From Allobosea sp. ASV33 (GTDB lineage Bacteria > Pseudomonadota > Alphaproteobacteria > Rhizobiales > Beijerinckiaceae), in assembly GCF_016428755.1 (NCBI RefSeq), contig NZ_JAELTI010000016.1, positions 1 to 64,000 on the forward strand: 64,000 nt of DNA, in the 5' to 3' direction. Shown piece by piece: positions 12,021 through 62,522 of this stretch. The notes under the pieces were generated by a model, which saw only the letters and a list, made by a program, of their open reading frames with translations, did not search any database and was not told where the DNA came from. Each line of letters starts with the position of its first letter. Within the stretch, counting starts at the first letter, position 1. A program made the translations under genes and the position numbers.

Positions 12021-12137
12021 CGTTTATTGCCGATGATTGTTGTCCTTGCAGAGCACGATCACCCTCTCCATCTGATGGGCGCATCGGCGGACGCCCCAGC
12101 AGGGACGCCCGCCTTTTCCGTATCCGATGGAGACCCG

Positions 12138-12872
12138 ATGGACCACCTGATGACGCTTGCCGCCGATCCCGCCGTTTGGGCCGCGCTCGGGGCACTGATC
12201 GCCATGGAGGTCGTGCTCGGCATCGACAATCTGATCTTCATCTCGATCCTGACCAACAAGCTGCCCGAGCATCAGCGCTCGAAGGGCCGCAAGATCGGAA
12301 TTGGCCTGGCGCTGGTGATGCGCCTCGGCCTGCTCGGCACCGTCGCCTTCATCGTCAAGCTCACCGCGCCGATCTTCACGCTGTTCGGCCAGGCCTTCTC
12401 CTGGCGCGACCTGATCCTGATCGCCGGCGGCCTCTTCCTGGTCTGGAAGGCGACGAAGGAGATCCATCACAAGGTCGATCCCGATCCGGAATCGGTGCTC
12501 GCCGAGGGCGGCACGCGCGCCGCGACCCTGGGCTTCGGCGCGGCGATCTTCCAGATCCTGATCCTCGACCTCGTGTTCTCGATTGATTCGATCATCACCG
12601 CCGTCGGCATGACCGAACATGTCCCGGTCATGGTCATCGCCGTCATCGTCGCGGTGCTGACGATGCTGCTCGCCGCCGATCCGCTGGCGCGCTTCATCGA
12701 CAAGAACCCGACGATCGTGATGCTGGCGCTGGGCTTCCTGCTGATGATCGGCGGCACGCTGATCGCGGAAGGCTTCGGCGTCCATGTGCCGAAGGGCTAT
12801 ATCTACGCCGCGATGGCCTTCGCGGCCCTGATCGAGGCGCTCAACATGCTGTCGCGCCGCCGGGCGCGATAG
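12138..12872 (+). CDS. TerC-family integral membrane protein, 244 aa
   Basis: A polytopic inner-membrane protein with about seven hydrophobic segments and the TerC hallmarks [21 protein letters not shown] near the N-terminus and [16 protein letters not shown] near residue 145; the paired acidic residues in these segments are linked to metal handling (Mn2+ export by TerC/Alx proteins in other bacteria). The start at 12138 is favoured by GGAGA upstream; an open frame from 12027 would add 37 residues that overlap the secB 3' region. A metal-dependent leader (yybP type) was not recognised. Confidence 0.9.
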
Positions 12873-15192: not shown

Positions 15193-15819
15193 TTAGCGGG
15201 CGAGGCAATCGAGATCGCGCAACGCGGCGAGCACTGCGAGCAGCGGCAAGCCGAGAATGGTGAAATGGTCGCCCTCGGCCTTGTCGAAAAGCTGAGCCCC
15301 CGGCCCTTCCAGTTGATAGCCGCCGACGCTGGTCAGGGCAGCCGAACCGGCGACCGCGAGATAGCGCGCGATGAAATCGGCCTGGAGCGGGCGCATGGTC
15401 AGGCGCGCGGCCTCTAGCCCCTCAGCCAGTGGTGCACCGTCGCGGGCGATGACGAAGGCGGAATGGAGCTCATGGGTCCGGCCGGCCAGCGATGCGATCT
15501 GCCGTTCCGCTGCGGCGAGATCGGCGGGTTTGTGAAAAGCGGCGCCACCACAGGTCAGGGTCTGATCGGCCGCGAGGACGACACGGCCCGGATGATCGTG
15601 GGAGACGGCGAGCGCCTTGGCACAGGCCAGTGCGGCCGCGACCTGATCGGCGGGAACGCCGCGATCGACCAGCGGCTTCTCGACCGCGCGTTCGTCGATC
15701 TCCGGCTTCACGACCTCGACGGGAACGCCCGCGGACAGGAGCATGTCGCGCCGGGTCGCGCTGCCGGAGGCAAGGATCAGCGGCTGTGGGTCAAGCCAGA
15801 GGCCGGATAAGGGGCTCAT
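15193..15819 (-). CDS. maf: Maf-family nucleotide pyrophosphatase
   Basis: A 208-residue house-cleaning NTP pyrophosphatase that hydrolyses non-canonical or dTTP/UTP-type nucleotides. The N-terminal [19 protein letters not shown] and the following E-I-D-E-R segment are the nucleotide-binding loop and the acidic catalytic cluster; AADQTL (~85) holds the conserved Asp. [28 protein letters not shown] is the C-terminal Maf signature. Subclass was not assigned. The gene overlaps ppsR by four bases. Confidence 0.93.
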
Positions 15820-16646
15820 GTCGCGATGAACTTCATGCGGTGGTCGCGTAGCAGATCGACGATCGAGGCGGCCGTCTCCTCGATCGAACGACGGGTCACA
15901 TCGATCACCGGCCAGCCCTTGCGGGCGCAGAGACGGCGCGATTGCGTGACCTCGTCGGCGACCGCGGTCGGATCAACATAGGAGGTGTCATCGTCTGCAC
16001 GCAGCGACAGCAACCGGTTCTGGCGGATCTGGACGATGCGGTCGGCACTCGCGATGAGGCCGACAATCAACGGCTTCTTGGCGCTTTCCAGTTCCGGCGG
16101 CAGCGGAATGTTCGGCACCAGCGGGATGTTGGCGGTCTTGATGCCGCGATTGGCGAGATAGATGCTCGTCGGCGTCTTCGAGGTCCGGCTGATGCCGACC
16201 AGGATGACGTCGGCATTGTCGAGATCGCCGCCCATCTGCCCGTCATCATGCAGCAGCGTGTAGTTCATCGCGTCGATGCGGCGGAAATATTCGGTGTTGA
16301 GCACGTGCTGCGCGCCGGGCTTCGTGGTCTGGGCCTGGCCGAGATAGGACTGGAACAGCGACAGCACGGGCTGCAGGACCGAGAGGCAGGGGCAGCCGAG
16401 CTCGCGACAGAAGCTTTCGAGCTTCTCCTGCCATTCCGGCTCGACCAGCGTGTAGAGCACGACGCCGGGCGAAGCCTCGATCTCGGCGAGGACGCGGGCG
16501 AGCTGCGCCTCCGAGCGAACCAGCGGATAGACATGCTCGATCGCCGAGACGCTTTCATATTGCGCGGCCGCGGCCCGGCTGACCGCTATCAGCGTCTCGC
16601 CGGTCGCATCCGAGACCAGATGCAGATGGAAATAATTGCGGACCAC
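15816..16646 (-). CDS. ppsR: PPDK/PEP-synthase regulatory bifunctional kinase-pyrophosphorylase (DUF299)
   Basis: A 276-residue protein that in characterised relatives uses ADP to inactivate, and phosphate to reactivate, pyruvate phosphate dikinase or PEP synthase. The P-loop-like segment [17 protein letters not shown] lies at ~150-166, followed by [14 protein letters not shown] and the C-terminal [26 protein letters not shown]. The GTG at 16646 with GGGGGA upstream gives the canonical N-terminus ([11 protein letters not shown]); a longer frame from an ATG at 16814 is rejected. It starts the leftward operon and borders the presumed origin, as DUF299 does in Caulobacter and Rickettsia. Confidence 0.95.
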
Positions 16647-16805
16647 GGCATCCCCCGGCCAGAAGCGTCCTCTTCCTCTAGCGCGCTTTGAGCCGGACCG
16701 GAATCGCCTCGAGGCGAATTGATGCCGGCTCGGCTTTTCGGGCTCCACGAGGCCGAACCGCCGGATGGTTCGGGAATGCGCATTATCCCGGGGCATGGGG
16801 AGCGA

Positions 16806-16814
16806 TGTGGACAA
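16806..16814 (-). promoter_or_regulatory. DnaA-box-like site (one mismatch)
   Basis: TGTGGACAA, the reverse complement of TTGTCCACA, differs by one base from the consensus TTATCCACA. A partial TTATCC box lies nearby at 16783-16788. Confidence 0.55.
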
Positions 16815-16900
16815 CTGGTCAGAAAACGGACGGCGGGCGGCGGCTCTGTATAACCCGCCCGGACCATCAACAGGCCGCCGGCTGTGAATGGTAAAGAAAG

Positions 16901-16916
16901 TGTTTCACGTGAATCA
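16901..16916. promoter_or_regulatory. parS: parS site (15 of 16 bases)
   Basis: TGTTTCACGTGAATCA matches the ParB-binding palindrome TGTTTCACGTGAAACA at 15 of 16 positions. It lies in the candidate origin and is 7.1 kb from the perfect copy in rsmG. Confidence 0.85.
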
Positions 16917-16954
16917 TTTCGGAAGCCGGCCGGGTGACCGCCGATTCCAATTCG

Positions 16955-16970
16955 TTAATAAAGCCTTAAC
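16955..16970. promoter_or_regulatory. CtrA-type binding site in the origin
   Basis: TTAATAAAGCCTTAAC fits TTAA-N7-TTAAC exactly. In Caulobacter CtrA occupies such sites in the origin to repress initiation. CtrA itself is not in the window. Confidence 0.65.
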
Positions 16971-17016
16971 AGCCGGGCAAGGCTCCTCCGGACCCGCGAC
17001 TCGCTGTCCCAGTGGC

Positions 17017-17036
17017 TGTGGACTGGTTGTGGACGG
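17017..17036 (-). promoter_or_regulatory. Pair of weak DnaA-box-like sequences 11 bp apart
   Basis: TGTGGACTG (17017-17025) and TGTGGACGG (17028-17036) share TGTGGAC and are spaced one helical turn apart. Each lacks the final AA of a strong box, like the weak boxes of Caulobacter. Confidence 0.45.
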
Positions 17037-17117
17037 AATTGCGGCGGGCTATCTCCCTGCCTCCAAGAGTCAAAACAAAAGATTCTCTCTAGGAATCTTA
17101 ATTGATGAGAGAGCGGG

Positions 17118-18170
17118 ATGGATGGCCCGTCAGGCATGACGAGAACCGAGACCCCTGCCCTGATCCGTGTGCTTGGCGGCGAAGCCCTTCCGACGCCTCC
17201 AATCTGGCTGATGCGACAGGCCGGGCGTTATCTCCCCGAATATCGCGAGCTCAGAGCCAAGGCCGGCAGCTTCCTGGCGCTCTGCTACAATCCCGAATGG
17301 GCCGCCGAGGTGACCCTCCAGCCGATCCGGCGCTTCGGCTTCGATGCTGCGATCCTGTTCTCAGATATCCTGGTCGCGCCGCAGGCGCTGGGCCAGAAGC
17401 TCTGGTTTGCCGAAGGCGAGGGTCCGCGGCTGGAGCCGGTGGCCGATGCGGCCCGCCTGGCGGAGATCGATCGCGAGGCGGACCAGAGCCGGCTCGATCC
17501 GATCCTGGAGACGGTGCGCCGGGTTCGCGCTGCCCTGCCCTCCGGGACCGGGTTCATCGGCTTCTGTGGCGCGCCCTGGACCGTGGCGACCTATATGGTC
17601 GCCGGCCGCGGCACGCCAGACCAGGCACCGGCCAAGGAGCTGTTTGCTCGCGATCCCGCGCTGTTCCAGGCGATCATCGATCGGCTGGTCGATTCATCGA
17701 TCGCCTATCTGAATGCGCAGATCGCCGCCGGCGTCGATGCCGTGCAGATCTTCGACAGCTGGGCGGGTTCGCTCGGGCCGGAGGATTTCAGGCGCTGGTG
17801 CATCCTGCCGACGCGGCGGATCGTCGAGGGCGTGCGCGCGGTGCATCCGCGGGCGCGGATCATCGGCTTTCCGCGCGGGGCCGGGCGGCTGATCCCTGAG
17901 TATATCGCGGGCACGGGCGTCGATGCGGTCGGGCTCGAAACCGATATCGATCGTGACTTTGCCCGGCATGCGATCCAGTCCAAGGTGCCCGTGCAGGGTC
18001 ATCTCGATCCGCTGGTGCTGCGTGCCGGCGGCGACGCGCTGGAGCGGGAGGCCGATGCCATCCTGACGGCTTTCGGAGGCCGGCCCTTCATCTTCAATCT
18101 CGGCCACGGCATCCTGCCGGACACGCCGATCGCGCATGTCGAGCGCTTGCTGAAACGGGTACGGGGCTGA
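17118..18170 (+). CDS. hemE: Uroporphyrinogen decarboxylase
   Basis: A 350-residue cofactor-free enzyme that removes four acetate carboxyls from uroporphyrinogen III in heme synthesis. The active-site motif [12 protein letters not shown] starts at residue 32, with Arg33 and Arg37 that bind substrate carboxylates; [12 protein letters not shown] carries the conserved Asp, and [21 protein letters not shown] and FDSWAG follow. Usual length. The ATG at 17118 has AGAGCGGG upstream; 17136 is an alternative. It is first in the rightward hemE-hemJ-rho series. Confidence 0.97.
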
Positions 18171-18181
18171 GGGCTCAGGCA

Positions 18182-18604
18182 ATGTACGAGTGGATCAAGG
18201 CTTTCCATGTCATGGCGGTCATCTCCTGGATGGCCGGCATGCTCTATCTGCCGCGCCTGATGGTCTATCACGCGGAGGCGCAGACCGGTTCGATCCAGTC
18301 CGAGACCTTCAAGATCATGGAGCGCCGGCTGCTCAGAGGCATCATCAACCCGGCGATGGCGCTGACCTGGGTGCTCGGCCTCTATCTCGCCTGGTATGGA
18401 TTCGGCTTCAAGGGCGGCTGGCTGCACGCCAAGCTGCTGTTCGTCTTCCTGCTGTCCGGCATCCACGGCGTGCTGGTGAAGCATGTCCGCAACTTCGCGG
18501 AAGATCGCAACGTGAAGTCGCCGCGCTATTTCCGCATCCTCAACGAGGTGCCGGCGGTGATGATGGTCGTTATCGTCATCCTCGTCGTCGTGAAGCCGTT
18601 CTGA
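18182..18604 (+). CDS. hemJ: Protoporphyrinogen IX oxidase HemJ
   Basis: A 140-residue membrane protein (UPF0093/CopD-like) that oxidises protoporphyrinogen IX in the many proteobacteria without HemG or HemY. About four transmembrane helices are seen, with the conserved N-terminal His in IKAFHVMAVISWMAGMLYLPRLMVYHAE and a further His in GWLHAKLLFVFLLSGIHG. It follows hemE by 11 bp and so sits in the heme pathway context. The product is expected in the inner membrane. Confidence 0.93.
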   Translation: MYEWIKAFHVMAVISWMAGMLYLPRLMVYHAEAQTGSIQSETFKIMERRLLRGIINPAMALTWVLGLYLAWYGFGFKGGWLHAKLLFVFLLSGIHGVLVKHVRNFAEDRNVKSPRYFRILNEVPAVMMVVIVILVVVKPF

Positions 18605-18650
18605 GGCCCTCGCGCTTTCCCGCTTGAGCCTGAACCCGATTCCCGCTATC

Positions 18651-18676
18651 AGGACGCTGCGCTTCTCCAGCGTCCT
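18651..18676 (+). terminator. Terminator-like hairpin after hemJ
   Basis: A 9-bp perfect stem (AGGACGCTG/CAGCGTCCT) with an 8-base loop is followed by CCCTTGTTG, so the T-run is weak. It lies in the 225-bp gap between hemJ and rho, which otherwise shows nothing. Confidence 0.5.
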
Positions 18677-18829
18677 CCCTTGTTGTCGACTGTTCGTGAG
18701 CCGCCTGCCCTCGCAGAAGCTCATGTCGCGCAACCCCAGCGCAGGTCCGGCCAGGACCGACTAAGTCGATCAATCCAGTACCGTCCCAACCCCTGCCGGT
18801 TCGCAGGGCGTTCATGATCCGGGTGCCCC

Positions 18830-20095
<1,266 letters not shown>

Positions 20096-20120
20096 CGATC
20101 GTCAGATCTCATTGGCGCTT

Positions 20121-20166
20121 CGATTCGCCGCCGTACCGATTCCCGGTGCGGCGGCGAAATCGTTTT
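20121..20166 (+). terminator. Intrinsic terminator of rho
   Basis: A long stem (CGATTCGCCGCCGTACCG pairing with CGGTGCGGCGGCGAAATCG, with small bulges) runs into TTTT. Confidence 0.85.
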
Positions 20167-20705
20167 GGGTCAGACCAAGGGTGGCGGTGGAAGCTGGCGC
20201 TGGGCGCCCTCTTCCGATTCGTATCCGTGACGATTCCCGCGCGAGGCCTCGGGCGAGTTGCATGAGCCAGCTTGCAGACATGTAACGGGAGTCGGTAAGC
20301 GGTAGGGCTGGTCGCCGAAATCGGGTCTGACCGAGTCAGACCCAGACTGAGGTTGCGATACCTGTCCAGGCCGTCTCCTGAACGCCGCGGTGGCTGCTGA
20401 CTCAATCCCGAGCGCATCCGCCTAGCGGCTGCGAGCGCCGCAACACCCTTCACGGCCGTAGCTTTCCGCGATCTGCCCCTCTTGGGTTTTCGCCGTGTGG
20501 GAGGTTGATGCGGCCAGCGAAACCGCTCCTTCCGAAGCTGAGACAGCGGTATGACATGGTAGTGCTTGGCAATTCCAACCGAGTCATACCGCGTTGATCA
20601 CGGTCCCGACGTTGGTTTTGAGCTCCTGGGGTGCTCGCAGCTGGTCTTGATGTCGGGCCTCACCTCGTCCATGACGTCGCTCTCCAGCGCATTTGACCGG
20701 TATTA
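20167..20705. other. Unexplained 539-bp gap between rho and mnmE with inverted repeats
   Basis: No convincing gene. Two inverted repeats stand out: GGGTCTGA-CCGAG-TCAGACCC (20323-20343) and GCGGTATGAC/GTCATACCGC (20546-20555 with 20583-20592) around a 27-base loop. An open frame on the minus strand (20109-20453) overlaps the rho terminator and has no recognisable fold. The gap may hold a small RNA, gene remnant or promoter region for mnmE. Confidence 0.55.
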
Positions 20706-22016
20706 ATGGACTCGCACACCTTCACGACGATTGTGGCCCTGTCATCGGCACCCGGCAAAGCGGGCGTCGCCGTGGTCAGAATATCCGGATCGCGCGTTCG
20801 ATTCGTTCTCGAAACATTTTGTGGGATCGTACCCCGGCCACGCGTTGCGACCTTGCGCAGGCTGACTGACGCCCAAGGCGAGACGATCGACACGGCGCTC
20901 GTGCTTTTCTTCGCGGCGCCGGCGAGTTTCACCGGAGAGGATGTGGCCGAGTTCCATGTCCACGGCTCGCGCGCCGTTCTGGCGCGGCTTCTGACCGCTC
21001 TCACGGCCTTGCCGGATATCCGCCTGGCGGAAGCCGGCGAATTCACCCGGCGTGCTTTCGAAGCCGGCAAGCTCGATCTGGCGGCCGTGGAAGGCTTGGC
21101 GGATCTGATCGATTCGGAAACGGAATGGCAACGCCAGCAGGCTCTGCGGCAAATGGACGGTGCCCTGAGCAGCTTCGTGACGGACTGGCGCAGCTCCCTG
21201 ATCAAGGCCATGAGCCTGCTCGCCGCCGAGCTCGACTTCTCCGATGAGGGCGACGTCACTGGCCCCCTGCAGCAGCAGGCGCTGGCACTGGCTGCAGATG
21301 TCCTGGTTTCCCTCCGGCAGGCCCTAGCTGGCTTCAGCATGGGAGAGCGAGTTCGCGAAGGCTTCGTGGTGGTTCTGGCGGGGCCGCCCAATGCCGGCAA
21401 ATCGAGCCTGCTGAATGCCTTGGCCCGGCGCGACGTCGCAATCGTCTCGCCTATCGCGGGGACGACACGGGACTCGCTCGAAGTGCGATTGGACCTCGCC
21501 GGACTTCCGGTCATCCTGATCGATACGGCCGGCCTGCGCGACAGCTCCGATCCAATCGAAGCCGAGGGCGTCCGGCGTGCCCGCGCCCTGGTCGACCGGG
21601 CAGATCTTGTTCTTGGCTTGCGCAGCATCGATTCGGAGCCGTATCGAATCGAAAACGATGGCCGATTGCTCAAAGTCGCCACCAAAGCCGATCTTCCAGG
21701 TCCGGTACTGGCAGACGAGCGAGCGATCTCTGTGAAGACCGGCGAGGGCGTGGCCGAACTGCTAGCCGAGGTCGCCCAGCGCTTGCAGCAATTGGGGGCA
21801 GGCGAACCCGCCCTCCTGACGCGAGAGCGACATCGCGTTGCCGTGATCGACGCGATTGCCGCGCTGGAACGCGCCGTTACGGCACGACACGGGCAGGCGG
21901 AACTGCTCGCCGAAGATATCCGTGTTGCTGTGGTGGCGCTCGAGCGCCTTGTCGGCCGCATCGATGTCGAGGATGTGCTCGATCAACTCTTCGCGGGATT
22001 CTGCATCGGCAAGTGA
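20706..22016 (+). CDS. mnmE: tRNA uridine-5-carboxymethylaminomethyl(34) synthesis GTPase MnmE
   Basis: A 436-residue GTPase that works with MnmG to modify U34 of tRNAs. The N-terminal tetrahydrofolate domain covers ~1-120. The G domain has G1 GPPNAGKSS (~227-235), G2 TTRD, G3 DTAGLRD and G4 TKAD. The C-terminal FCIGK retains the conserved Cys. The start at 20706 has no obvious ribosome-binding site. It leads into mnmG, rsmG, parA and parB. Confidence 0.97.
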   Translation: MDSHTFTTIVALSSAPGKAGVAVVRISGSRVRFVLETFCGIVPRPRVATLRRLTDAQGETIDTALVLFFAAPASFTGEDVAEFHVHGSRAVLARLLTALTALPDIRLAEAGEFTRRAFEAGKLDLAAVEGLADLIDSETEWQRQQALRQMDGALSSFVTDWRSSLIKAMSLLAAELDFSDEGDVTGPLQQQALALAADVLVSLRQALAGFSMGERVREGFVVVLAGPPNAGKSSLLNALARRDVAIVSPIAGTTRDSLEVRLDLAGLPVILIDTAGLRDSSDPIEAEGVRRARALVDRADLVLGLRSIDSEPYRIENDGRLLKVATKADLPGPVLADERAISVKTGEGVAELLAEVAQRLQQLGAGEPALLTRERHRVAVIDAIAALERAVTARHGQAELLAEDIRVAVVALERLVGRIDVEDVLDQLFAGFCIGK

Positions 22017-22090
22017 TGTGGGCGCGGCGCGCGCCCGGATTCGCCGCGATTGTCGTTGACCGGCCCGCCGGGCTTCGTTAGCGAAATTGC

Positions 22091-23977
22091 ATGTCAATTC
22101 ATCGGCAGCATTACGACGTCATCGTCGTCGGCGGCGGCCATGCCGGGGCCGAGGCAGCTGCGGCTGCCGCGCGCTACGGCGCCCGCACGGCCCTGGTCAC
22201 GCATAAGCCGGAAACCATTGGCGTGATGTCCTGCAACCCTGCCATTGGCGGGCTTGGCAAGGGACATCTCGTCCGTGAGATCGATGCGCTCGACGGCATC
22301 ATGGCGCGGGCAGCCGATCTCGGCGGTATCCAGTTCCGCATGCTCAATCGCCGGAAAGGCCCGGCCGTTCGCGGTCCCCGTGCCCAGGCGGACCGGAAGC
22401 TCTATCGCCAGGCCGTGCAGCACCTGCTGGCGGCACAAGACAATCTCGACATCGTCGCCGGCGAGGTTTTCGATCTGGACGTCGAAGCCGACCGCGTTGT
22501 CGGCGTGATCCTGGCGGACGGGCGTCGATTCGCCACCGGAACGGTCGTGCTGACAACCGGAACCTTCCTGCGGGGCCTGATCCATATCGGCGAGAAGCGA
22601 ATTCCCGCCGGGCGCGTCGACGAGGCACCTTCCCTCGGCCTTTCAGCGACGCTGGAACGCTACGGCTTTCCGCTCGGCCGCCTGAAGACGGGTACGCCGC
22701 CACGACTCGATGGGCGCAGCATCGACTGGGCGGCGCTGGAGATGCAGCCCGGCGACGAGCCCCCCGAGCCGTTCTCTGCACTCACATCGGCCATCGCCAA
22801 TCCGCAAATCTCCTGCAGGATCACGCGAACGACGCTGGCGAGCCACGATCTCATCCGTGCCAATCTGCATCGCGCGCCGATGTTCTCCGGCCAGATCGAA
22901 GGCCGCGGGCCGCGTTACTGCCCGTCGATCGAGGACAAGGTCGGGCGCTTCGGCGACCGCGATGGCCACCAGATCTTTCTGGAGCCCGAAGGCCTCGATG
23001 ACGATACGGTCTATCCGAACGGGATTTCGACCTCCCTACCCGAGGACGTCCAGCTCGAACTGCTGAAGACCATTCCGGGCCTCGAACGAGCCGCGATGCT
23101 GCGACCGGGCTATGCGATCGAATATGACTTCGTCGATCCGCGCGCCCTCAAGAACAGCCTGGAGACGCGCGCGATCTCCGGGCTTTTCCTCGCCGGGCAG
23201 ATCAACGGCACAACCGGTTACGAAGAGGCGGGCGCGCAGGGCCTGCTGGCCGGCCTGAATGCGGCCCGTATGGCGGGCGGATCGGAAGCCGCGGTATTCG
23301 ACCGAACGCAATCGTATATCGGCGTGCTCATCGACGACCTCGTGACGCATGGCGTTACGGAACCGTATCGAATGTTCACCTCGCGCGCCGAGTTTCGACT
23401 GTCTTTGCGCGTCGACAATGCGGATGAGCGTCTCACGCCGCTGGGGCAGCAGCTCGGCATCGTCGGCTCAATCCGCCAAGCGGCCTTCGAAACCCGGGAC
23501 CGCGATATTTCCGACCTGAGGGCGACGCTCCAAGGCCTCTCGCTCACGCCGCAGCAGGCCCAGGCAGTCGGGCTCCAGCTGAATCATGACGGACTTCGCC
23601 GCAGCGCCTACCAGATCCTGTCCTATCCGGACGTCACATTCGAGCAGTTAGCGGCGGTCTGGCCGCAACTGAATGACTATGCCGCGCCCGTCGTGGCTCG
23701 GGTGACGGCGGATGCGGTCTACTCGGTCTATCTCGACCGGCAGGCGGCGGAGATTCAGGCTTATCGCCGCGACCAGTCTCTCAAGGTCCCGACCGATCTC
23801 GACCTCGACGCGATTTCGGGGCTATCGAACGAATTGAAGCTTAAGCTGGCGGCACAGCGCCCGGCCGATCTGGCGCAAGCCGGCCGGATCGAGGGCATGA
23901 CACCGGCGGCTTTGACCTTGCTGGCGGCCCACGCCCGGAAAGGCCGGGCGGCCGCATTATCCACAGGGTCGACGTGA
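22091..23977 (+). CDS. mnmG: tRNA uridine-5-carboxymethylaminomethyl(34) synthesis enzyme MnmG
   Basis: A 628-residue FAD-dependent partner of MnmE. The dinucleotide loop [10 protein letters not shown] (~14-23), [22 protein letters not shown] and the second motif [11 protein letters not shown] are in place, as are the substrate-binding [10 protein letters not shown] and the C-terminal helical domain that meets MnmE and tRNA. It ends with TGA overlapping the GTG of rsmG by four bases, so the two genes are translationally coupled. Confidence 0.97.
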
Positions 23978-24621
23978 CTGTTGATAAGAACGACCGCCAG
24001 CGCGCTTTGAGCTTGACGCCTGTTTCACGTGAAACAGAGGAGCGGCTGGCGCTTCTGGTTGCGGAGCTCGGGCGCTGGCAGGCGGCGAAGAACCTCGTCT
24101 CCTCCGCCACGCTTGCCGATGTCTGGACACGGCATATCGCCGATTCTCTCCAGATCTTTGGCTTGGCCGAGGGGCGCGAGCGCTGGCTCGATCTCGGTTC
24201 GGGTGGCGGTTTTCCGGGACTCGTGATCGGCATCTGCCTGGCGGAACAGGGCAAAGGCCAGATCGATCTGGTCGAGAGCAATGCGCGAAAATGCGCGTTT
24301 CTGCGCCATGCGGCCCGCGTCACCGGGGCTCCGGTCAAGGTTCACACGGCCCGTATCGAAGATGTGATCGGCGATTTCACCGGCAAGGTCGATGTGGTGA
24401 CGGCGCGGGCCCTGGCGCCCCTGCCCCAATTGCTCGTCTGGTGCGAAGAGCTGTTGAGAACCGGCACGCTTGGACTCTTTCCCAAGGGACAACATCTAGA
24501 TACGGAATTGACCGACTCAGCCAGATATTGGAAGATTCAAGCGACAACGGTTTCCTCCGTGACTGACGCTGCCGCGCGAATCCTGATGGTGCGCTCGGCC
24601 GAGAGACGAGCCGATTCATGA
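23974..24621 (+). CDS. rsmG: 16S rRNA (guanine(527)-N7)-methyltransferase RsmG
   Basis: A 215-residue SAM-dependent methyltransferase for G527 of 16S rRNA. The SAM loop [11 protein letters not shown] is at ~72-82; [37 protein letters not shown] and the C-terminal segment match the family. The GTG start overlaps mnmG. Its coding sequence holds a perfect parS at 24021-24036, and the last four bases overlap the parA start. Confidence 0.93.
24021..24036. promoter_or_regulatory. parS: parS site, perfect 16-bp palindrome
   Basis: TGTTTCACGTGAAACA matches the ParB-binding consensus exactly. It lies in codons 17-21 of rsmG, encoding part of the N-terminus, about 580 bp before parA. Confidence 0.95.
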
Positions 24622-25448
24622 CAGAGCTCACATCCGTGACGACACCGCGCCGCCCGCGCGTGATCGCGCTCGCCAACCAGAAGGGTGGCGTCGGCAAGAC
24701 GACGACGGCGATCAATCTCGGCACGGCCCTGGCAGCCATCGGCGAGAAGGTCCTGATCGTCGATCTCGATCCACAGGGCAACGCCTCGACGGGGCTCGGC
24801 GTCGATCGCCGCAGCCGCAAATCCTCGACCTATGACGTGCTCTGCGGCGATGTCGGGTTGGGGCAGGCCCTTCAAGCCACCGCGGTTCCCGGCCTGTCGC
24901 TCGCGCCCTCGACGCTCGACCTTCTCGGTGTCGAACTGGAGATCGCTTCGGCTAAGGACCGTGCGCATCGGCTGAAGAATGCGATCGACGAGCTCGTCTA
25001 TGACCAGCGCTGCCAGGACCTCACCTATATCCTGATCGACTGCCCGCCTTCCCTCAGTCTGATTACGATCAATGCGATGACTGCGGCAGATGCGGTGCTG
25101 GTGCCCTTGCAGTGCGAGTTCTTCGCATTGGAAGGTTTGAGCCAGCTTCTGAAGACCGTCGAGCAGGTGAAGGCCGGCCTCAACCCGCGCCTCATCATCC
25201 AGGGTGTGGTGCTGACGATGTTCGATCCGCGCAACAACCTTTCCGGGCAGGTGATGGCGGATGTGAAGAGCTTCCTCGGCGACAAGGTCTACGAGACCGT
25301 GATTCCGCGCAACGTGCGGATTTCGGAGGCGCCGTCCTATGGTAAGCCGGCGCTGCTTTACGATCTCCGCTGCTCGGGGTCGCAGGCCTATCTGCGCTTG
25401 GCGTCGGAAGTGATCAAGCGCGAGCGCGCCCTGCGCGCAGCTGCCTGA
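24618..25448 (+). CDS. parA: Chromosome-partitioning ATPase ParA (Soj type)
   Basis: A 276-residue deviant Walker ATPase that binds DNA when ATP-bound and moves ParB-parS complexes. The deviant Walker A loop KGGVGKTT lies at ~22-29, DLDPQGN at ~49-55 and DCPPSLS at ~138-144; no N-terminal helix-turn-helix is present, so it is the chromosomal (Soj) class. It overlaps rsmG by four bases and parB follows after 32 bp; with parS close by this is a complete parABS set. Confidence 0.96.
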   Translation: MTELTSVTTPRRPRVIALANQKGGVGKTTTAINLGTALAAIGEKVLIVDLDPQGNASTGLGVDRRSRKSSTYDVLCGDVGLGQALQATAVPGLSLAPSTLDLLGVELEIASAKDRAHRLKNAIDELVYDQRCQDLTYILIDCPPSLSLITINAMTAADAVLVPLQCEFFALEGLSQLLKTVEQVKAGLNPRLIIQGVVLTMFDPRNNLSGQVMADVKSFLGDKVYETVIPRNVRISEAPSYGKPALLYDLRCSGSQAYLRLASEVIKRERALRAAA

Positions 25449-25480
25449 AAGACAAGTTTTAGAGGTTGATGAGGATGGCG

Positions 25481-26362
25481 ATGGCCGAAGAACAGGGGCG
25501 TTCCCGCCTGGGCCGCGGTCTGGCGGCGCTGATCGGCGATGTGGGTGACGAGATCGGGGCGATCGAGCGTGCGCGTGGACAGCGCCGCGTTCCCGTTGAG
25601 TTCCTGCGGCCGAGCGCCCGCAATCCGCGTCGCAATTTCGTTGAGGAGGATCTCGAGGATCTGACGACCTCGATCCGCGAGCGCGGCATCCTCCAGCCGA
25701 TCATCGTTCGTTCCATTCCCGGAATGATGGATGCTTATGAGATCATCGCCGGCGAGCGTCGCTGGCGCGCGGCGCAGCGCGCCGAGTTGCATGACGTGCC
25801 GGTTATTCTGGTCGAGGCGGATGACCGGGAGGCGCTGGAGATCGCCATTGTCGAGAACGTGCAGCGCACGGATCTCAATGCGATCGAGGAAGCCGCCGGC
25901 TATGAGCGCTTGATCGCCGAATTCGGCTACACGCAGAACGACTTGGCGCGCGTCATCGGCAAGAGCCGCAGCCACGTCGCCAATACGCTGCGCCTGTCTA
26001 AATTGCCAGAGCCGGTGCGGAAGCTGGTGAGCGAAGGCGCGGTTTCGGCCGGCCATGCCCGCGCGCTCCTGTCCGTTTCGGACCCGGAATTCATGGCGCA
26101 GAAGATCATCGACGAAGGCTTGAGCGTTCGCGATATCGAGCGGATCGTGCAGGACGAGGCGCGTGGCGAGACCAAGAGCGCTGTCCCGAGCAAGCCGAAA
26201 CCGGTGAAGGATCCGGACACCCGGGCCCTGGAGAAGGCGCTGGAAGAGGCGCTAGGCCTCTCCGTCTCGATCGGGCACAAGGCGAATGGCTCGGGCGAGG
26301 TCAAGATCGGCTACAAGACGCTCGAGCAGCTCGACGCGCTCTGTCACCGCCTGAAGTCCTGA
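25481..26362 (+). CDS. parB: Chromosome-partitioning protein ParB (Spo0J type)
   Basis: A 293-residue CTP-dependent DNA clamp that loads at parS and spreads. The N-terminal CTP-binding fold contains GERRWRAAQRAEL and IVENVQRTDLNAIEEA; the helix-turn-helix follows (LARVIGKSRSHVANTLRLSKLP); the C-terminus dimerises (GSGEVKIGYKTLEQLDALCHRL). The ATG at 25481 gives the family N-terminus (RSRLGRGLAALIGDVG after the first residues) with GAGG upstream; 25469 and 25475 are alternatives. It is convergent with holA. Confidence 0.95.
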   Translation: MAEEQGRSRLGRGLAALIGDVGDEIGAIERARGQRRVPVEFLRPSARNPRRNFVEEDLEDLTTSIRERGILQPIIVRSIPGMMDAYEIIAGERRWRAAQRAELHDVPVILVEADDREALEIAIVENVQRTDLNAIEEAAGYERLIAEFGYTQNDLARVIGKSRSHVANTLRLSKLPEPVRKLVSEGAVSAGHARALLSVSDPEFMAQKIIDEGLSVRDIERIVQDEARGETKSAVPSKPKPVKDPDTRALEKALEEALGLSVSIGHKANGSGEVKIGYKTLEQLDALCHRLKS

Positions 26363-44776: not shown

Positions 44777-44833
44777 CGGTCTTTCCGTTCAAGGGTGCAC
44801 AAGCGGGTGCCGGTTTGCGTATGGAAACGCCGC

Positions 44834-44930
44834 CGTCATTTCGGACAAGCCGCGATAGCGGCGCCGATCCGGAATCCATCCCAGGGCTTAAGCGCTCTAA
44901 GACGGATCCCGGGTCAAGCCCGGGATGACG
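44834..44930. repeat. Dispersed intergenic palindromic repeat, copy 6 (mixed arms)
   Basis: The left arm belongs to the CGTCATTTCGGACAAGC type, the right arm to the GGGTCAAGCCCGGGATGACG type seen at 601 and 1448. It lies after the end of the glutamate dehydrogenase gene. Confidence 0.7.
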
Positions 44931-44960
44931 GCGCGTTTGGTCGTCAAAACACCATGCCTT

Positions 44961-51372: not shown

Positions 51373-51398
51373 CGCGCCGAGGCAGGCTTTTCATTCGA

Positions 51399-51512
51399 GC
51401 CCTCATCCTGAGGAGCAGCCGAAGGCTGCGTCTCGAAGGGTGCTCCAGATGATTCCCGAGCCTCCTGGAACATCCTTCGAGACGCCGCTACGCGGCTCCT
51501 CAGGATGAGGGC
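51399..51512. repeat. Palindromic repeat of a second type (CCTCATCCTGAGGAG arms)
   Basis: The perfect 15-bp outer arms GCCCTCATCCTGAGG and CCTCAGGATGAGGGC are joined by nested arms (CGTCTCGAAGG with CCTTCGAGACG). It sits in the convergent DUF2794/GNAT junction and differs in sequence from the CGTCATTCC type. Confidence 0.75.
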
Positions 51513-51520
51513 TTTGAGGT

Positions 51521-58399: not shown

Positions 58400-58506
58400 C
58401 GTCATTCCGGGCGCAGCGCAGCGGAGGCCCGGAATCCATCGTAGAGCGTTGACGCCCCTCGATGGATTCCGGATCGGCGCCGCTTCGCGGCTTGTCCGGA
58501 ATGACG
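58400..58506. repeat. Dispersed intergenic palindromic repeat, copy 9
   Basis: CGTCATTCCGG and CCGGAATGACG outer arms, with inner GGAATCCATCG and CGATGGATTCC. It lies between the aldo/keto reductase and thpR. Confidence 0.8.
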
Positions 58507-58599
58507 GAGCGTGTGGGTCGAGGGAAAAACAATTCCCTTGAGCCGGCTTCCTGATCTACCGTCTCTCCAGAGTCACAATCGCTTGGCAGGGATTCGCTC

Positions 58600-62387: not shown

Positions 62388-62400
62388 GCTCTTCCTCCTG

Positions 62401-62505
62401 CGTCATTCCGGACAAGCGGCGAAGCCGCGCCGATCCGGAATCCATCCTCAGGCTCTCTGCTCTACGATGGATTCCGAGTCTGAGCTTCGCTTGCCCGGAA
62501 TGACG
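62401..62505. repeat. Dispersed intergenic palindromic repeat, copy 11
   Basis: CGTCATTCCGGACAAGC and CCGGAATGACG arms with inner GGAATCCATC and GATGGATTCC. It lies between yciB and the Xre antitoxin gene. Confidence 0.8.
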
Positions 62506-62522
62506 GTCCTGCAAGATGCCTC

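Follow-up and report, generated by a model that had tools for sequence, protein, structure and literature searches.

The chromosomal origin of Sinorhizobium meliloti, which belongs to the same order as the host studied here as inferred from the host's named relatives, is located at hemE. The origins of Caulobacter crescentus (Cori) and Rickettsia prowazekii are flanked by hemE and a COG1806 gene, as is the locus described here (PMC1914354, sections on the origin). The presence of GANTC sites in the origin of Caulobacter and close species has already been published (PMC3973325, passages on these sites). For the S. meliloti origin, the passages of PMC4433202 that deal with it report that a CtrA motif is absent and that CtrA does not bind, and in Hyphomonas the marker frequency peaks near hemE while the skew is unclear (PMC6650430, passages on the origin). 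ParB2 competes with the initiator at ori2 of Vibrio cholerae (PMC6090056, section on ori2), and the methylation sites of the repABC megaplasmid pAMI4 are described as having an unknown role in the part of PMC9040568 that treats them. Methylation of GANTC at the parS locus of C. crescentus, measured as a control, was unchanged with extra methylase according to the control passage of PMC5172544. The excerpt of that report on MucR explains that occlusion by MucR keeps GANTCs under-methylated, and its authors point out that further binding proteins are capable of the same.

We have analyzed a 64-kb stretch of DNA, here called the window, which is part of contig C76 of the host assembly, a 5.66-Mb draft in 401 contigs. 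The 471-bp gap between ppsR and hemE in this window is predicted with high confidence to be a hemE-type origin like that of Caulobacter, at which DnaA starts replication of the main chromosome. In kind it is very probably an ordinary hemE-type origin, at which the start of replication is itself predicted from sequence. Its unusual detail is an invariant parS at the origin centre, which is predicted to double as a CcrM site.

The ppsR-hemE gap and its neighbors

The gap lies between two divergent genes, and the flanks named in the initial annotation (DUF299 and hemE, around a non-coding gap of 471 bp) were borne out by domain matches. The features of the region are:

16647..17117, unstranded: predicted chromosomal origin, the gap between ppsR and hemE (from flanks, motifs, footprint and congener skew)
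15816..16646, minus strand: ppsR (Kinase-PPPase, DUF299/COG1806), left flank; PF03618, E 8.3e-91
17118..18170, plus strand: hemE (uroporphyrinogen decarboxylase), right flank; PF01208, E 1.2e-113; ATG at 17118
24618..25448, plus strand: parA; PF13614
25466..26362, plus strand: parB; PF02195, PF17762 and PF23552

The start codon of ppsR reads GTG at 16646, while hemE may start at a later ATG (17136) because many congener alignments begin further in. As had been described, the flanking genes run outward on both sides. To the left these are ppsR, maf, aroE, coaE and a gene for a dnaQ-like exonuclease (16646 down to 12997), beyond which the adjoining gene (12027-12872) lies on the opposite strand, and to the right hemE, UPF0093, rho, mnmE, mnmG, rsmG, parA and parB (17118-26362). 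A border of hemE on one side and COG1806/DUF299 (ppsR) on the other is that of the Caulobacter type. Of 80 named loci, 52 had the same order of ppsR, gap and hemE; the remaining 28, whose stretches (some of them short) lacked a match to ppsR at E 1e-10, were dropped. Among these 28, 21 are titled Bradyrhizobium, Afipia, Tardiphaga, Nitrobacter or Bradyrhizobiaceae, and the missing ppsR match in such Bradyrhizobium-type loci indicates that the left origin flank may have been exchanged there.

The nearest named relative by HemE among the matches listed was a Beijerinckiaceae metagenome bin (78% identity), in a list that may leave out records very near the host. A search of 15800-18200 against Rfam gave no match up to E 0.1, thus no known RNA family lies in this stretch, and a scan for promoters and terminators returned a single weak promoter-like site and no terminator. 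Further to the right, the window carries dispersed repeats of about 105-115 bp (44823-44938, 51398-51513, 58400-58507 and 62393-62506). These occur in many copies in the host and its congeners, about 83-94% identical among the matches listed, and would fit a repeat family of this genus.

Sequence motifs in the gap

The motifs that make up the predicted origin are, from left to right:

16806..16814, minus strand: DnaA-type box TTGTCCACA (TGTGGACAA on the plus strand), one mismatch (motif scan)
16901..16916, plus strand: parS TGTTTCACGTGAATCA inside the origin, one mismatch of 16 (motif scan)
16955..16969, unstranded: exact CtrA-type site, TTAA-N7-TTAA (motif scan)
17017-17022 and 17028-17033, minus strand: tandem TGTGGA boxes (TCCACA on the minus strand), 11 bp apart
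17061..17110, unstranded: candidate unwinding element, an AT-rich tract next to hemE that carries GANTC at 17067, 17081 and 17093

Several of these had been named in the initial annotation. The exact CtrA-type site was recovered at 16955, where it is the single one in the gap, and the sole IHF candidate of the motif scan, a one-mismatch match at 16948, overlaps it. The AT-rich tract was likewise confirmed, with up to 70% AT beside hemE (57% and 70% in two 40-bp windows spanning 17050-17109), and the gap as a whole has 59% GC compared to 62-71% in 2-kb windows of the 64-kb stretch. Near DnaA boxes had been described, and three TGTGGA-type boxes fall inside the gap, out of 11 TGTGGA/TCCACA hexamers in the 64-kb window. 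These are individually weak matches to a DnaA box, and the perfect box TTATCCACA was not found in the gap by motif scan. The gap had also been called a complete candidate origin; with weak DnaA boxes and a single CtrA-type site, its completeness is putative.

Absent from the initial annotation were the GANTC sites, of which the gap holds seven, compared to a mean of 2.6 in dinucleotide shuffles (P 0.008). Seven or more were reached by 35 of 6354 sliding windows of gap size in the 64 kb. A second cluster of eight sites, at a density as high as that of the gap, is found at about 20.0-20.6 kb, in the 610-bp non-coding gap between rho and mnmE (20096-20705). The length and sequence of the rho-mnmE gap are unconserved among the congeners compared; over the window and 15 of 17 loci, it ranges from 86 to 3723 bp with 0 to 14.6 GANTC per kb. 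A role as another control element was weighed for this cluster and rejected, as it showed no conserved pattern.

Conservation of the predicted origin in the genus

The footprint alignment consists of the gap from 30 of the 37 genus genomes searched, the host's own included. The seven genomes outside the alignment, for which 30 loci were taken, include the three most divergent in ppsR. Identity to the window goes down to 54% in the most distant row, and conservation is therefore informative. The named sites (45 bases) had a mean identity to the window of 99.3% across the 30 genomes, compared to 55.7% over the remaining 423 gap bases; these sites were listed after the conservation profile had been viewed, yet they were drawn from known motifs of the earlier scan. 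The parS at 16901-16916 was identical in all 30 genomes, and both tandem TGTGGA boxes and the two CtrA half-sites were intact in every one, with a varying 7-base CtrA spacer. The box at 16806 was TGTGGACAA in 22 of the 30, TGTGGATAA in four and altered otherwise in four. The composite of a CtrA-type site and a TGTGGA at 30-60 bases was present at the gap in 9/9 genomes, with one extra place each in G024 and G029.

Retention of the GANTC sites differed. The site at 17081 was kept in 30/30 genomes, with T (24), C (3), G (2) or A (1) as the N, while the other sites were retained in 27 (17067), 22 (16943), 13 (16701), 9 (17093) and 6 (16998) of the 30. The persistence of GA-TC at 17081 together with all four N bases points to selection on this CcrM site, and at least one CcrM site in the origin thus looks to be under selection as a putative methylation site.

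Strand skew and the position of dnaA

The host's own skew was outside the test due to the 401 contigs, and 20-kb stretches of four near-complete congeners were sampled instead. In three of these, GC skew was negative or close to zero to the left of the gap and positive to its right, and the change was missing in the rearranged G012. The GC-skew sums to the left and right were -0.009 and +0.028 in G024, -0.012 and +0.026 in G029, and +0.002 and +0.033 in G010, where the origin stretch itself is excluded from the side sums, as it is in G012. The majority strand of the oriented motif GGGNAGGG, which is known as a KOPS-like motif from other bacteria and served solely as an oriented marker, switched between the sides in the same three genomes (8/32 vs 35/15 in G024, 16/32 vs 22/6 in G029, and 13/39 vs 21/2 in G010). 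Skew was noisy near the gap, as the left arm of the window was mixed, G024 was mixed within 0.5 Mb and the left side of G010 was about zero.

As the initial annotation had noted, dnaA was not seen in the 64-kb window, and the best match in the host assembly is on another contig, C368. In seven of the eight congeners with three contigs or fewer, dnaA is on the ppsR side of the gap at a distance of 106-237 kb. In most of the genus dnaA is thus not far from the gap, which corrects the claim that the origin is unlinked from it. The added comparison, unlinked "as in Caulobacter", is loose because dnaA of Caulobacter also lies near its origin. Matches to the DnaA ATPase family numbered 8 in G010, 16 in G016 and 23 in G024, mostly with equal scores, and these matches resemble expanded insertion-sequence helper (IstB-like) genes.

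Since the distance to dnaA is within the resolution of the coarse skew samples, G029 was also walked continuously over 400 kb. On the ppsR side, 14 kb from the gap, the cumulative GC skew reached its minimum. This point is 92 kb away from dnaA, which in this genome is 106 kb off the gap. The curve is uneven, climbing on the far left and then dropping to the gap. The keto-skew curve of G029 was left unused, as a masked run of N was scored as non-keto and made its minimum meaningless.

A true origin at dnaA, 106-237 kb to the left, would reduce the gap to a conserved regulatory region of hemE and ppsR. Beyond this class, many bacteria have their origin beside dnaA, and the coarse samples are unable to separate places 100-200 kb apart. 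The walk of G029, however, places its minimum close to the gap and away from dnaA. In the 3.5 kb around the ATPase domain of the host dnaA, there was no DnaA box within one mismatch and GANTC was at the background level of 2.0/kb, and the conserved parS and TGTGGA blocks of the gap are unlike a heme-gene promoter. An origin at dnaA is therefore highly improbable. The discordant genome is G012, which of the near-complete congeners is closest to the host, with 89% identity over ppsR-hemE. Around its hemE gap the skew is reversed (+0.015 to the left, -0.018 to the right). A centre near 1.35 Mb fits better, and there the sampled skew and GGGNAGGG both switch side, as would be expected from a real second or moved origin in the G012 lineage. 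Yet in G012 the composite of CtrA-type site and TGTGGA was found at the hemE gap alone, and the two exact parS-type sites only at this gap and 7 kb beside it. Gene order also speaks against such an origin. The part of G012 corresponding to 44-64 kb of the window is at 4.87 Mb and the gap at 5.14 Mb, 0.27 Mb apart, while in six other near-complete congeners this part is beside the gap (its last portion locally inverted in G016); dnaA of G012 is 2.47 Mb from the gap. Since G012 is collinear over 6.7-26.5 kb of the window, the break in gene order must fall 9-28 kb rightward of the gap, which suggests that G012 is rearranged or misassembled. We regard a second or moved origin in this lineage as very unlikely and have discounted the skew of G012 because of the rearranged gene order, although its reversed skew counts against an origin at the hemE gap.

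An origin at the hemE gap accordingly remains the preferred reading, and the candidate put forward by the initial annotation was upheld by the 30-genome footprint, the skew change in G010, G024 and G029, and the nearby minimum in G029. A GC-skew minimum elsewhere, which had been named as the result that would speak against it, was seen in the G012 assembly alone.

A parS inside the predicted origin

The parS that had been proposed for the gap was found, and two further features are relevant to it:

16911..16915, unstranded: GAATC (GANTC, CcrM-type) in the right half of parS, present in 30/30
24021..24036, unstranded: second, canonical parS TGTTTCACGTGAAACA within rsmG, exact (motif scan)

The site in the gap matches TGTTTCACGTGAAACA with the CACGTG core, and parA is 7.7 kb off; ParB is predicted to bind it. 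Its single mismatch creates the CcrM site GAATC. At four mismatches or fewer, the sites at 16901 and 24021 are the only parS-like sites in the 64 kb, and the pair of gap and canonical parS is common to 9/9 genus genomes searched, the host's own included.

A parS with at most two mismatches was present in three of 52 other ppsR-hemE gaps, each of the GANTC type. The nearest relative, L003, carries TGTTTCACGTGAATCA, and L053 and L057 both carry TGTTTCACGTGAGTCA. None was found in the 22 gaps from sister genera and families (L252-L273). The exact CtrA-type site was present in 6/52 named gaps and 11/22 of the sister gaps, and is thus a feature of some lineages only.

Across 121 genomes of the order, canonical parS was found at 111 sites in 64 genomes (hand sum, forward column). 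Single changes at position 14 numbered 64 by hand count, with T in 54, G in 9 and C in 1, and the GAATC-type variant was present in 40/121 genomes (hand count). Changes at position 13 were searched in 199 genomes with the rest of parS exact and position 14 free. This gave nine sites in eight genomes from four families, all of them G together with T14 and hence GAGTC, while the nine possible position-13 variants that lack T14 were all absent. Among the 121 genomes common to both searches, position 13 was changed in 5/59 T14 sites vs 0/111 canonical sites (Fisher P 0.004, with kinship ignored and the 10 sites carrying G or C at position 14 omitted). The control for CcrM over the phylum was imperfect, as the pattern is order-specific and not CcrM-wide. 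A ParB preference in this order is part of the explanation.

Two of the nine GAGTC-type sites are in an origin gap (L245 and L246, one family), and the 3-kb stretches of the other seven lack both hemE and ppsR. In L053, L057, L245 and L246, parS starts 104-113 bp before hemE, compared to 217 bp in the window. These differing positions indicate that two clades probably placed parS into the origin at different places, and every copy seen there has a GANTC right half. The composite parS/GANTC of L053, L057, L245 and L246, which is GAGTC and not GAATC, probably belongs to one other clade.

GANTC richness is shared by the wider set of gaps. The 52 named gaps contain 217 GANTC sites vs 83 expected from shuffles, i.e., 11.4/kb compared to 2.0/kb over all loci, and seven control palindromes were at 4.9/kb or less. 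The RAMA domain (CcrM-type) gave one match above cut-off per genome in 5/5 genomes, and among 14 control genomes Caulobacter alone matched. One of 23 genomes gave no match in one search, and its row was dropped. The putative CcrM protein of the host (L284 1492-2721, 409 aa), the one protein compared with the NCBIfam CcrM model NF050803, matched it with E 2.6e-185, its 615 bits being below the model cut-off of 830 bits. The GANTC sites of the gap are thus found in a CcrM-encoding genome, in which their methylation is predicted.

Proposed origin firing and a possible role of methylation

The observations comprise the sites with their conservation and, in relatives, the change of skew; from these we infer the following course of binding and firing. 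DnaA would bind at 16806 and at the tandem pair of 17017-17033, opening the AT-rich tract at 17061-17110, while CtrA at 16955 would block firing in non-replicating cells. ParB would load on both the parS inside the gap (16901) and the canonical one lying 7 kb further right, and sister origins might thus be captured and moved immediately after replication. The CcrM sites in the gap would be fully methylated or hemi-methylated depending on whether the origin has fired.

The overlap of parS and GANTC could extend this scheme to a methylation-gated centromere in the origin, i.e., a composite ParB/CcrM site where N6-methylation of adenines within the GAATC half alters ParB loading. Firing, which would turn the site from fully to hemi-methylated, might then switch the state of the centromere and couple initiation to the start of segregation. 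We consider this a tentative and rather unlikely proposal. A plain ParB site, in which GAATC is a by-product of ParB tolerating T14 and methylation is irrelevant, is the likelier account and one that we hold to be reasonably probable. It agrees with T14 being the common single change (54/64 sites in 121 genomes of the order) and with the dispensability of CcrM for Caulobacter initiation control (PMC3973325, passages on CcrM). Against it speak the change of position 13 only where T14 keeps a GANTC (9/9 sites in 199 genomes), the excess of such changes at T14 sites over canonical ones with its Fisher P of 0.004, in which kinship is ignored, and the retention of GA-TC at 17081 in 30/30 genomes while N takes all four bases. 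Taken as sequence patterns, these suggest selection for methylation at the parS GANTC.

Comparison with known systems

In Caulobacter, parS lies kilobases from the origin, while here it is inside the origin. Among papers listed by searches of the open-licence full-text literature, we recognized neither a CcrM-site-containing parS described by sequence nor a chromosomal origin of the DnaA type whose hemE gap contains parS. A GANTC-bearing parS in the origin is a candidate for signalling fresh origin firing to alphaproteobacterial segregation. If true, such a segregation role would be a new answer to the GANTC richness of origins, because CcrM is dispensable for Caulobacter initiation control (PMC3973325, in its passages on CcrM).

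The locus shares the TTAA-N7-TTAA CtrA-type site, the DnaA-type boxes and the AT-rich tract with Cori, but Cori has five CtrA sites where this gap has one exact CtrA-type site (PMC1914354, description of Cori). The DnaA boxes are also weaker than those of Cori. As an origin, the gap would give a genus of the Hyphomicrobiales a defined locus of the cell cycle, and its CtrA-type site is kept in 30/30 genomes, unlike in the S. meliloti origin, for which the corresponding section of PMC4433202 reports that a CtrA motif is absent. With respect to the internal parS, the closest likeness is to V. cholerae ori2, where parS2 is within the origin region beside initiator sites (PMC6090056, section on ori2). 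However, ori2 uses an RctB/iteron initiator and is unrelated in sequence, in contrast to the set of DnaA, CtrA and CcrM sites found here. The 3parS of pAMI4, a repABC megaplasmid, is an alphaproteobacterial parS near a CcrM-site-rich region, but its sites are plasmid RepB sites and its GANTCs are about 500 bp from parS (PMC9040568, passages on 3parS), whereas in the present origin the GANTC is inside parS.
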